DNA of 37,622 nt from a virus. A model generated the notes under the pieces. It did not search any database, was not told the origin of the DNA, and saw only the letters and a program-made list of their open reading frames with translations. This document shows, piece after piece, positions 27,648 through 33,576 of this stretch (positions within the stretch are counted from its first letter, which is position 1; each line of letters starts with the position of its first letter). The stretch spans positions 1 to 37,622 of IMG/VR virus record IMGVR_UViG_3300047463_000095; one strand, 5' to 3'. Position numbers and translations under genes: made by a program.

Positions 27648-27939
27648 AGCACTAAAACAGGCGCTGGAAGCGTTGGAAGAAGTGCGTGGTTGGCAATGGG
27701 CTGGCCCTATGCGGGTCATGGATGAAGTTGACGATGCAATCACTGCCCTACGCCAAGCCATTGAAGAAGCAGAGCATGAGCCTGTGGGCTGGATAGATTC
27801 CAAGCTAAACCCTATTAAGCGTGAATGGGTTGGGCTGACGGATGAATTAAAAGTAATCCTGATTAAAAAGACTCCCAATTGGACTGCGATTCAATTGATT
27901 GAGGAAACTGAACTATTGCTCAAGGAGAAGAACACATGA
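27640..27939 (+). CDS. Hypothetical phage early protein (helical, ea22-like start)
   Basis: A 99-aa acidic helical protein starting MIEALKQALEALEEVRG, followed by 'DAITALRQAIEEAEHEPVGW'. This start pattern is common in early-region proteins of lambdoid and Burkholderiales phages. The C-terminus is helical and acidic. No enzyme motif. Coupled to neighbours by overlaps. Confidence 0.62.
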   Translation: MIEALKQALEALEEVRGWQWAGPMRVMDEVDDAITALRQAIEEAEHEPVGWIDSKLNPIKREWVGLTDELKVILIKKTPNWTAIQLIEETELLLKEKNT

Positions 27940-28301
27940 ATCCATCTTTTGAGTCTTTTTGGAATGTATGGCCTCGCTCACCTCGAAAAGAGGCAAAGAG
28001 CAAGTGTTTGGAAAAGTGGGAGAAACTCAAACTTGATTTTCAGGCTACACAGATCATTCGTCATGTGACATGGCTGAAAACCACCGAACAATGGCAAAAA
28101 TCCAATGGTTCGTTTATTCCTGCGCCTTTGGTTTACTTGAACCAGATGAGATGGGATGGGGCAGACATACCTGATGATTTTGACAAGCCCAAACAAGAAA
28201 AAGACCCGATTTTGGTCAAACTTGAGCAAGACAGGGCTACCGCAATCCCTATGCCAGAGGAGATCAGGCGCAAATTGGCTGAGTTGAGGGCAAGACGATG
28301 A
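27936..28301 (+). CDS. Replication-protein C-terminal-like domain (possible helicase-loader partner)
   Basis: A 121-aa protein: 'FESFWNVWPRSPRKEAKSK' at the start, then a helix, and 'FIPAPLVYLNQMRWDGADIP' (about residues 62-81). This F-W-x-x-W/Y-P-R ... F-I-P-x-P-x-x-Y/W-L-N-x-x-R-W order is the C-terminal module of many phage replication initiator/organiser proteins, which contacts the helicase machinery. Here it stands alone, without the usual N-terminal winged helix; that part might be supplied by the 89-aa protein at 26932. Basic C-terminus. Confidence 0.62.
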   Translation: MNPSFESFWNVWPRSPRKEAKSKCLEKWEKLKLDFQATQIIRHVTWLKTTEQWQKSNGSFIPAPLVYLNQMRWDGADIPDDFDKPKQEKDPILVKLEQDRATAIPMPEEIRRKLAELRARR

Positions 28302-28402
28302 AGTTTCTGATTTTTGGGTTGCTTTGTTTTTTCATAGGAGGAATGTTAGGGTTTTTACCCGGTGCAATTTTTGTGCTTGCGGTTGTTGCATTGATGCAAT
28401 AA
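28298..28402 (+). CDS. 34-aa membrane mini-protein
   Basis: ATG 28298 overlaps the upstream stop. The product is MKFLIFGLLCFFIGGMLGFL then PGAIFVLAVVALMQ: one or two closely spaced hydrophobic helices. No other candidate frame fits this space. Membrane peptide of unknown function. Confidence 0.55.
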   Translation: MKFLIFGLLCFFIGGMLGFLPGAIFVLAVVALMQ

Positions 28403-28413
28403 TGTGATAACAT
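28386..28413 (+). promoter_or_regulatory. Palindrome and possible promoter upstream of the structured RNA
   Basis: TTGCAT (28386-28391) and ATGCAA (28394-28399) form a 6+6 palindrome with a 2-base centre. Nine bases further, TAACAT (28408-28413) preceded by TGTGA could serve as an extended -10; TTGCAT itself is a poor -35 at 16-base spacing. A transcription start near 28420 would begin the structured RNA below. A similar TTGCAT...ATGCA pair occurs at 33732-33748. Confidence 0.35.
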
Positions 28414-28778
28414 GGGAACTGTTGTCGTGGAAGTCAACAAATCAAAGCCGTTTACTCATGCGTCTGGCCCTTTTGGGGGCACTTCCACCGGGCGCAGTAG
28501 TAAGCGGCTTTTTTGTTTCTCTTACGGCATCCGTACCCCACACGATAGCAAGCATTACAAGTCTGATGGCGTGGGAGGAAAGGGCTACACGGTATGCCGA
28601 GAGGCTAGGGGGCAGTTCCCGAACAATCCGTGCGACTGGTCGTATCACGAAGTCGAGGGGCACAACCCGGTGGGTTGGCATCGTGATCCCTGTAAAGGGG
28701 GTGAAGCACCTGAACCTTCTTACTCCATGCTTGGGGTAGGGGGGTCTTTGGGTGAAATGGCGCAACAAGGGGGAATCT
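28403..28778 (+). other. 376-base region without a convincing protein gene
   Basis: Two long plus-strand frames cross this stretch, 28412-28816 (134 aa) and 28458-28739 (about 93 aa), but neither has a ribosome binding site and both would read through a 21-bp hairpin and a run of six T. The second begins with a hydrophobic run ('LALLGALPPGAVVSGFFVSL') and ends basic. ATG 28566 in the same frame would give a 57-aa basic protein. I treat the first 100 bases as an RNA element and the remainder as undecided. Confidence 0.4.
28420..28514 (+). ncRNA. Candidate structured RNA with terminator, two hairpins and kissing loops
   Basis: Hairpin 1: TGTTG (28420-28424) with CAACA (28435-28439), 10-base loop. 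Hairpin 2: a 10-bp helix 28447-28456 with 28499-28508, a 2x2 internal loop, then a 9-bp helix 28459-28467 with 28488-28496. It is followed by six T (28509-28514). Loop 1 contains GTGGAAGT (28427-28434); loop 2 contains its exact complement ACTTCCAC (28481-28488), which could form an 8-bp kissing interaction. Hairpin 2 with the T-run is also a good terminator. Could be a small RNA, an attenuator or a terminator with regulatory loop pairing. Confidence 0.55.
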
Positions 28779-28988
28779 ATGAAGCAAGGGACATATCTGG
28801 GGTATCCATTGACTGATTGGTATTTGCCAACACAAAAGCCCGTCCGAAAGGGTTTATACATTGTTGGGAGTAACCAATTGAGCGTGTTGCTTGAATGGAA
28901 TGGAAAAAAATGGGTGAATGGATACAAACAGCCGTTTAAATACCAAAATTTAAGTTGGCGTGGGGTGCAGGGGGAACATCATGTTTGA
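28779..28988 (+). CDS. Small hypothetical phage protein
   Basis: A 69-aa protein starting MKQGTYLGYPLTDWYLPTQK; it contains 'YIVGSNQLSVLLEWNGKKWV' and 'NLSWRGVQ'. The W-Y-x-P...W-N-G-K-x-W...W-R-G pattern recurs in small phage early proteins and looks like a small beta-barrel. AAGGGGG precedes the ATG. It overlaps the methyltransferase start by eight bases. Confidence 0.6.
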   Translation: MKQGTYLGYPLTDWYLPTQKPVRKGLYIVGSNQLSVLLEWNGKKWVNGYKQPFKYQNLSWRGVQGEHHV

Positions 28989-29706
28989 TAAGGTTGTGAT
29001 TGGAGATTCAACCTTGTATTGCGGAGATTGTTTAGAAGTGCTGCCTACACTTGAAAAAGTGGATGCAGTGATTACAGACCCGCCTTACAAACATGGTTCC
29101 ATGAATGGTTCAGGTTTTGCGGGTGAATGTGAGTTTTACGCTGATGGAAAAATTGACTTCATTAGTGATTTTGATTTAAATCTTTACAAAACTTTACTTT
29201 CTGGTGTTTCTGACCAGATTGTTGCTTTTTGTTCCCGTGATTTGGTTCCTGAATGGCTTGATTTTGCGAAAAGTGAATTTGGGGGATTTGATGTTCATTT
29301 TTGGCACAAAACAAATGCCATACCATTTACCCACAATGTATGGAAAAGCGACATTGAGTATTTGATACTTGGATGGCGCAAAAAAACACACCAGCCCGTC
29401 CATCAGTCGATGAAAAGCAAGGCTTACATATCGCCAATATGCACAGACGATTACCATCCTACTGCCAAACCTGTTAATTTGATGGCAAAGTATGTCCAAG
29501 TTTTATTGCCCCCAAATGGGGTTTGTTTAGACCCGTTTATGGGGTCTGGTACAACTGGTGTGGCTGCAGCACAATTAGGTCGCAGATTTATTGGGGTTGA
29601 GCGTGAGAGGAAATATTTTGACATTGCTTGTCAAAGGATTGAATTGGCATCAAAACAGGTGCAAATGTTCCCGCCTAAAACCATGAAACAGGTTGATTTG
29701 CTATGA
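28981..29706 (+). CDS. DNA methyltransferase (N6-adenine/N4-cytosine type, beta-group order)
   Basis: A 241-aa enzyme with catalytic motif IV DPPY at residues 33-36 and the SAM-binding motif 'DPFMGSGTT' at 184-192, followed by 'RFIGVERERKYFDIACQRI'. Catalytic motif first and SAM motif last is the beta-group order. ATG 28981 follows AGGGGGA; an upstream TTG at 28960 is rejected. No restriction endonuclease is next to it, so it is an orphan phage methyltransferase, probably protecting phage DNA or altering regulation. Recognition sequence cannot be told. Confidence 0.88.
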   Translation: MFDKVVIGDSTLYCGDCLEVLPTLEKVDAVITDPPYKHGSMNGSGFAGECEFYADGKIDFISDFDLNLYKTLLSGVSDQIVAFCSRDLVPEWLDFAKSEFGGFDVHFWHKTNAIPFTHNVWKSDIEYLILGWRKKTHQPVHQSMKSKAYISPICTDDYHPTAKPVNLMAKYVQVLLPPNGVCLDPFMGSGTTGVAAAQLGRRFIGVERERKYFDIACQRIELASKQVQMFPPKTMKQVDLL

Positions 29707-32793: not shown

Positions 32794-33576
32794 TTAGATT
32801 GACAATTGACCTGCTTTCAAAATCTTATCGGCTGTACTGAAAATCTGGTGCGCCGTTTTCTCTTGAACATCGGCCCCTGATAACCAGCCCTGAATATAAC
32901 CCCGGCTTTCATCAAGGCCGGGTAAGCCTAAAATCGAGCAAAGTATGTAGGCCACTGATTCGGCTTGCACTTCGCGCACATCGCGGGGGGTTTGTTCGCT
33001 GTCTGTCATCATGTGCTCTTTGGTATGACCTAGAACAACATGGGCCAATTCGTGAAACCGGGTTTTGTGCGGGAAAGCAGCGACAGGGTTTATAGCGATA
33101 GATTGATCAATCGCATATCCCTGACAATTCCCGTTTGTTTCACTGAATGACACTTGATTGATGCCCAAATTTTGAAGTGCTGTATCGGCGCACCATGCCG
33201 GGGTTTTTACTTCGTGCTGGTAATCCTGGCCATCGGTTTGAGACAAAACAAACCAATTATTGCGCCACATAAAGCGATTGAATGAGTGTATTTCATCTTG
33301 GCCTGTTTGTTCGTTTTTACGGGTTGTTTTCATGGTAACAGGCATACATAGTGTCAATGCTTTCTGGCCCTTAGTAACGCAGCGGCCTAAGTCCTGCCAA
33401 GCCTTGAATGTTGCAATGGGGCCAATATCAAGGCCACGGGCCATGCACTGACCAATTGCGGCCTGTTGATTGCCAATACTGAAATTGTGAAAAGCGCTAT
33501 ATGCCTTGGAAATGATGCCGGGCATCGTGATAGCTTGTTTCAGTAGATCAGAGAATTGAATTGTAGGCGTATTCAT
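32794..33576 (-). CDS. ArdC-like antirestriction protein / zinc metallopeptidase
   Basis: A 260-aa protein. Residues about 10-115 resemble the ArdC N-terminal ssDNA-binding domain ('FKAWQDLGRCVTKGQKALTL', later 'FNRFMWRNNWFVLSQTDG'). The C-terminal domain has the metallopeptidase motif HELAH (175-179) and a likely third ligand Glu206 in 'REVQAESVAYIL'. ArdC proteins of plasmids protect incoming DNA from restriction. Length is slightly short of plasmid ArdC (about 300). GAGGTG precedes ATG 33576, which overlaps the stop of the 39-aa gene. It pairs logically with the orphan methyltransferase as counter-defence. Confidence 0.8.
   Translation of the reverse strand: MNTPTIQFSDLLKQAITMPGIISKAYSAFHNFSIGNQQAAIGQCMARGLDIGPIATFKAWQDLGRCVTKGQKALTLCMPVTMKTTRKNEQTGQDEIHSFNRFMWRNNWFVLSQTDGQDYQHEVKTPAWCADTALQNLGINQVSFSETNGNCQGYAIDQSIAINPVAAFPHKTRFHELAHVVLGHTKEHMMTDSEQTPRDVREVQAESVAYILCSILGLPGLDESRGYIQGWLSGADVQEKTAHQIFSTADKILKAGQLSI

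Follow-up and report, generated by a model that had tools for sequence, protein, structure and literature searches.

The window, i.e. the whole 37,622-base viral record analyzed here, carries genes with Pfam or PHROGs matches to portal, head, tail-fibre, and terminase proteins, an Erf annealing protein, RusA, and NinB; its terminase large subunit belongs to phrog_2, and a replication initiation protein is also encoded. A homologue of an anti-restriction protein (phrog_7245) lies at 32794–33576 on the minus strand. Between the ORF at 28298–28402 and the genes at 28960–29706, approximately 350–380 bases hold no credible coding sequence, and 2 putative structured RNAs, here called RNA1 and RNA2, lie one behind the other in this interval. 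The features of the locus are:

27936–28301: replication-initiation-like gene, the upstream flank of the RNA1 region
28298–28402: 34-codon ORF that overlaps the −35 region; the palindrome at 28386–28399 is its end
28386–28413, plus strand: putative sigma70-like promoter, with a −35-like TTGCAT (28386–28391), a 16-nt spacer, and a −10 TAACAT (28408–28413)
28420–28514, plus strand: RNA1, a candidate small RNA of 95 nt, from the 5′ hairpin through the T-run (sequence, fold, covariance model)
28420–28439, plus strand: P1, the 5′ hairpin, with stem 28420–28424 pairing with 28435–28439
28427–28434, plus strand: loop word GTGGAAGT, the 5′ half of the pseudoknot, which covaries with 28481–28488
28444–28511, plus strand: P2, the terminator stem, whose lower part pairs 28444–28456 with 28499–28511
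28459–28466 with 28489–28496, plus strand: upper part of P2
28457–28458 opposite 28497–28498, plus strand: conserved CA/GU internal loop (2×2) in P2
28467–28480, plus strand: P3, a small inner hairpin seated on P2, in the MFE fold common to 8 of 8 members folded
28481–28488, plus strand: bulge word ACTTCCAC, 8 nt between P3 and upper P2, the exact complement of the P1 loop
28509–28514, plus strand: T-run (6 T) of the intrinsic terminator, seen in the sequence and also in aligned members
28531–28752, plus strand: RNA2 type A, the other structured RNA, whose pseudoknot shows covariation; the evidence is comparative, without ORF support
28960–29706: small ORF and DNA methyltransferase, the downstream flank of the RNA1/RNA2 region

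A preliminary description of this locus had reported a palindrome, a possible −10, and a compact RNA with 2 hairpins, complementary loops, and a terminator, and the observation of a compact, self-complementary, terminated 2-hairpin element is confirmed. The palindrome (TTGCATTGATGCAA, 28386–28399), the possible −10 (TGTGATAACAT, 28403–28413, of which TAACAT is 28408–28413), the 5′ hairpin that exposes GTGGAAGT (28420–28439), and the 6 T that follow the long hairpin (28509–28514) are all present. The long hairpin (28444–28511) also contains the perfect complement ACTTCCAC as described, but presents it as an 8-nt bulge and not as a hairpin loop. The palindrome was considered as part of the element and left out, because the upstream consensus of the relatives contains no such palindrome.

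The fold is unusually stable, with z-scores of −4.7 for 28404–28518 and −5.2 for 28420–28513, and in neither case did any shuffled sequence reach the same stability. It ends in a T-proximal stem of 12–13 bp followed by 6 T, i.e. the form of an intrinsic terminator, which a simple terminator scanner that allows only loops of 3–8 overlooks.

Searches with the neighboring methyltransferase for homologous loci, and for near-identical phages with the window, returned nothing, and it was a weak BLAST match that led to a relative, the uncultured podovirus MW202484.1 from Manatee Spring, USA. There, the gene 5′ of RNA1 is a replication gene homologous to that of the window (56% identity across 95% of the length), and the loop (GTAACGGT) and its partner (ACCGTTAC) are altered on both sides with the pairing retained. 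Pattern scans of IMG/VR extend the family to at least about 190 members of what we call class I, from which 150 distinct elements were parsed; RNA1 lengths among members range from 87 to 103 nt. The pattern for the P2 core (TTACTCATGC...GCAGTAGTAA) matched at least 120 stretches, and an independent 5′-hairpin pattern gave 119 matches, many with other P2 cores, with chance matches recognized by the lack of the remaining structure and excluded. Since members were sampled by exact patterns, conservation at the pattern bases is inflated, and this holds in part for the TTACWCATGC/GCAGYWGTAA core conserved in RNA1 members; the comparison of loop and bulge is independent of the pattern bases, and the second pattern left the P2 core free.

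The loop and bulge words vary widely (31–38 distinct words) and their complementarity is retained. Among the first-scan matches listed, a Watson–Crick run of at least 7 joins the loop to the P2 interior in 104 of 105 distinct elements, the remaining one having a run of 6, or 8 counting G–U, while mismatched loop/interior partners mostly give 4–5 Watson–Crick pairs; the 8-bp complementarity first noticed in the window is, at the level of the family, beyond chance. By position, 97.7% of the cells are paired across 31 distinct words, compared with 69% (maximum 77%) after column shuffling, in a test run without a global alignment because MAFFT displaces the bulge word by 1 or more columns between rows. 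Elsewhere in P2, a T–A pair is replaced by A–T in 37 of 150 members, and the CA/GU-type internal loop is unpaired (C·U or C·C plus A·G mismatches) in 149 of 150. RNAalifold detects changes on both sides in 10 of 25 nested pairs, 8 divergent members share a single MFE architecture (z from −5.2 to −6.6), and RNA1 of the window scores 95.6 bits (E = 1.6e-18) in a covariance model of 53 members that includes it. Compensatory changes, proposed as the check on this structure in homologous contigs, are found both in the loop/bulge pairing and in P2. These comparisons show that the 7–8-bp pairing is under selection, which would lock the 2 helices into one compact body, and they place RNA1 in what appears to be an undescribed family of phage RNAs.

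Protein conservation of the frames crossing the region, which would have spoken for a coding role, is not found: the ORFs at 28404–28739 and 28412–28816 have no significant match in Pfam or PHROGs, and RNA1 lengths are spread over all 3 classes modulo 3, which argues against a conserved reading frame. In MW202484.1 (33533–33892), an annotated hypothetical protein (UOF77725.1) spans RNA1 and RNA2, and this annotation is very likely spurious.

The complementarity between the 5′ loop and the terminator hairpin had also suggested an attenuator, in which the loop invades the hairpin and weakens it. The loop is exactly complementary to one strand of that hairpin; however, all members folded have the partner in a bulge outside and above the T-proximal stem of 12–13 bp, where the terminator fold leaves it unpaired, so that pairing disrupts no terminator pair. 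We consider this reading very improbable.

Upstream of P1, 142 of 145 distinct members have their best −10-like hexamer ending 5–7 nt from the hairpin (6 or 7 nt in 139), and the mean promoter score is 9.9 in relatives vs 6.8 in shuffled sequences. A strict-consensus promoter scan of the window does not find the promoter of its RNA1, a weak match, which is nevertheless credible because a −10 stands at the matching distance throughout the family. Given this fixed distance, the transcript is expected to run from P1 to the terminator. The family-wide promoter position and the terminator agree with the earlier proposal of a dedicated small RNA.

Two stem-loops at the start of a phage transcript, as presumed for RNA1, are also seen in HK022 putL, and putRNA (∼70 nt) suppresses termination and pausing and binds the zinc-binding domain of the RNA polymerase β′ subunit (PMC9378689). 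By analogy, RNA1 could act as a nascent antiterminator, altering the polymerase so that it continues into RNA2 and the genes downstream. Unlike putRNA, which promotes read-through and does not end in a terminator, RNA1 carries a T-run on its second hairpin and its fold is complete only once the terminator has been made, and we give this possibility hardly any weight.

The sequence 3′ of RNA1 is itself informative. In the window, RNA2 starts 16 nt past the T-run and is not in Rfam. Its single-sequence fold is unremarkable (z = −1.3) and the support for it is comparative. In an alignment of 16 type-A sequences, 98.0% of cells are paired, both sides change in 16 of 29 pairs, and the covariation score is 0.397 compared with 0.116 after shuffling (0 of 500 shuffles as high; slid controls at most 0.063), values that are favored to some degree because the structure was drawn from the same alignment. 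Most RNA1 members are likewise followed, 3′ of the T-run, by another noncoding, structured-looking sequence. Among the 141 class-I members with enough downstream sequence, 96 have a recurrent RNA2 5′ motif (type A in 44, type B in 32, and type C in 20), and most of the others have further recurrent kinds of RNA2. In 5 phage loci, the RNA2 directly 3′ of RNA1 is the Rfam family Betaproteobacteria-1 (RF02932; L082:5600-5717, L024:6892-7009, L039:3482-3599, L270:4146-4263, and L008:3442-3558). This family shares its phage context with RNA1 as one kind of RNA2, but it is the second RNA and not RNA1, and neither RNA1 nor RNA2 of the window matches it. A few RNA1 copies have a protein gene directly 3′ or no recognizable RNA2 (L040, L205, and probably also L066/L087 and L096).

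The linkage also holds when the loci are approached from RNA2. An RNA1-like hairpin with a T-run is found just 5′ in 31 of 31 IMG/VR loci that contain an exact 30-base word of RNA2 type A; by eye, and with one locus truncated upstream, 18 of these belong to class I and close variants, 4 to class II, and 9 to class III. Class II shares the architecture of class I, and its core (TTAAGTCAGA...TCTGTCTTAA) has no sequence relationship to that class. A scan for it gives 36 loci, and nearly all real ones, judged where upstream sequence is available, have a 5′ loop whose complement is a strand within the terminator hairpin; the loop words vary less here (often GTGGAA), which makes the cross-control less sharp. 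Class II likewise precedes kinds of RNA2 that are seen after class I. Class III elements (L240–L243, L247, L250–L252, and L258) have a larger hairpin and a T-run at the equivalent position 5′ of RNA2, with internal complementarity read by eye alone. Taken together, the loci show one architecture, realized in at least 2 unrelated sequence classes, that precedes exchangeable RNA2 sequences, mostly by ∼15–40 nt. As judged from this arrangement, RNA1 is evolutionarily tied to RNA2, which lies beyond the point where the preliminary description stops.

Our favored reading, to which we give about an even chance, is that RNA1 is a promoter-driven, pseudoknotted, terminated leader that sets the amount of RNA2. 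Host RNA polymerase would start at the promoter just 5′ of P1 and make RNA1, usually halting at its terminator and releasing a stable, end-protected small RNA. RNA2 would be made only on readthrough, either from the RNA1 promoter or from a phage operon, since in most members the gap between RNA1 and RNA2 is too short for a second promoter. As such, RNA1 would gate how much RNA2 is produced, and the pseudoknot would hold the RNA1 fold and thereby favor termination and nuclease resistance. A similar arrangement is found in the lambda pR′-tR′ late leader (lambda 6S RNA), where a promoter makes a short terminated phage RNA before a longer unit, as RNA1 is predicted to do. Lambda 6S RNA is not known for a conserved pseudoknot, and where it would be followed by a fixed set of late genes, RNA1 is followed by RNA2 and by genes that vary.

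Other phage small RNAs, such as C4 and the P4 CI antisense RNAs, have single-stranded segments complementary to nearby RNA, and in the case of C4 the paired target lies in the mRNA downstream. In RNA1, by contrast, the partner lies inside the molecule, no target is found in RNA2 (next 260 nt), and there is no Rfam C4 match. Over the same 260 nt, RNA1 loop and bulge words are no more complementary to their own RNA2 than to the RNA2 of other phages, so no switch between the two RNAs is visible.

Control of RNA2 is not the whole story, given that some RNA1 copies lack a recognizable RNA2 or stand directly before a protein gene, and the leader model does not explain the conserved CA/GU internal loop, which suggests a protein or tertiary contact. 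RNA1 could instead be an independent trans-acting small RNA, e.g. by serving a host protein as ligand or decoy through the CA/GU loop or the terminator tail, with RNA2 a separate element brought together with it by a common insertion hot spot and ordinary operon transcription. The promoter position and terminator of its own, the invariant internal loop and the conserved core (partly inflated by the search) fit this alternative; copies with a protein gene directly 3′ in place of RNA2 (L040 and L205) keep it alive, and gene contexts vary, 20 of the 69 sampled loci having terL as neighbor and others having replication genes nearby. However, an RNA1-like element stands 5′ of all 31 type-A loci, even with unrelated classes, as would not be expected from a mere hot spot, and we regard an independent small RNA as rather unlikely, although a serious contender.

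Upstream neighbors in the 69 sampled loci include the terminase large subunit (20), RusA-like resolvase (7), DNA primase (5), and methyltransferase (5), and replication initiation proteins are downstream in 12 of 68; no gene among these sampled neighbors is a universal partner of RNA1. Terminase large subunits, at about a third of the upstream neighbors, bring to mind phi29 pRNA, a small phage RNA with 2 mutually complementary single-stranded regions whose loops pair between molecules in the packaging ring. RNA1 is also small and has 2 complementary single-stranded segments that change together as contacts within an oligomer would, and these could pair between molecules to form dimers or rings. 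In contrast to pRNA, most sampled RNA1 copies are not beside packaging genes, many being far from terL, and the window phage, with its Erf, RusA, NinB, replication initiation protein, and phrog_2 terminase large subunit, is not phi29-like. Linker and helix lengths also appear compatible with pairing in one molecule, and the covariation fits intra- and intermolecular pairing alike. Intermolecular kissing loops that covary are known from GOLLD and ROOL, phage-borne structured RNAs of unknown function that are often near tRNAs (PMC12286853). RNA1 is at times near tRNA genes as well (upstream in L023, L025, and L068), but it is 87–103 nt long where GOLLD and ROOL have several hundred, and their Rfam models have no match in the window or in 36 related loci. 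Overall, we consider an oligomeric RNA1 improbable.

An Rfam 15 search of the entire window gives no match at the gathering threshold, with all hits up to E = 10 far below it, and 2 further RNA1 members have no credible match; we ascribe to chance the matches to mir-210, trpB, and snoRNA that appear when E-values are permissive. With putRNA, C4-type targeting of RNA2, and GOLLD/ROOL also differing from what we find, the earlier impression that no named RNA family has this layout holds. No earlier description was found in the open-access literature by content or sequence string, and a sighting under another name is possible.

BLAST of 3 class-I variants against GenBank phages (50,697 records) has MW202484.1, a sequence-only genome, as the sole real match, and a plasmid BLAST with RNA1 gives none. 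Of 84,980 species genomes scanned with an exact pattern, 9 match and 2 of the matches are real (L127 and L129); in the other 7 the remainder of the element is absent, and these were set aside as chance. The 2 real copies are on short contigs binned as beta proteobacterium and Comamonadaceae, and a covariance-model search of 399 genomes from the order of the Comamonadaceae MAG finds only that MAG's own contig. On these thin data, the carrier hosts are probably betaproteobacteria, and carriers would rarely be prophages within sequenced genomes.

The covariation establishes an RNA family, well above 100 distinct members in size, for which Rfam has no entry and of which sequenced isolates contain hardly any copies (1 of 50,697 phage records, itself uncultured, and 2 real copies in 84,980 species genomes under a strict pattern). 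The orphan RNA Betaproteobacteria-1 also gains a phage context, since it is among the several partners that can be exchanged behind RNA1. We tentatively entertain, while leaning against it, a broader view in which RNA1 forms the constant front end of a modular and mobile phage cassette, i.e. one promoter, a pseudoknotted gatekeeper with its terminator, and interchangeable structured RNAs behind (types A, B, C, Betaproteobacteria-1, and others), as an RNA-only toolkit among uncultivated phages. If the gate model is true, the RNA cassettes that phages carry are modular and share a control element; what is new here is the RNA family and the cassette layout, rather than a demonstrated mechanism.

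Several smaller observations concern the surroundings of RNA1. Genes for tRNAs lie just 5′ of it at L023:1689-1763, L025:11338-11412, and L068:2624-3042 (Met in 2 of these), and a tRNA-like sequence lies just 3′ at L034:5790-5855. RNA2 types A and B have distinct 5′ modules (CGTACTCC.. vs CGTCAGGGCG..) and sometimes a common 3′ part (window from 28531 onward, L029, and L002), which suggests possible module swapping within RNA2. In 7 loci (L132, L134, L151, L155, L158, L184, and L191), an extra module of ∼90–100 nt with ends like GGAACTAGG...CCTAGTTCC lies between RNA1 and RNA2, and other inserts are found 3′ of RNA1 in L005, L018, and L138; these inserts and extra modules look like arrays of RNA modules.
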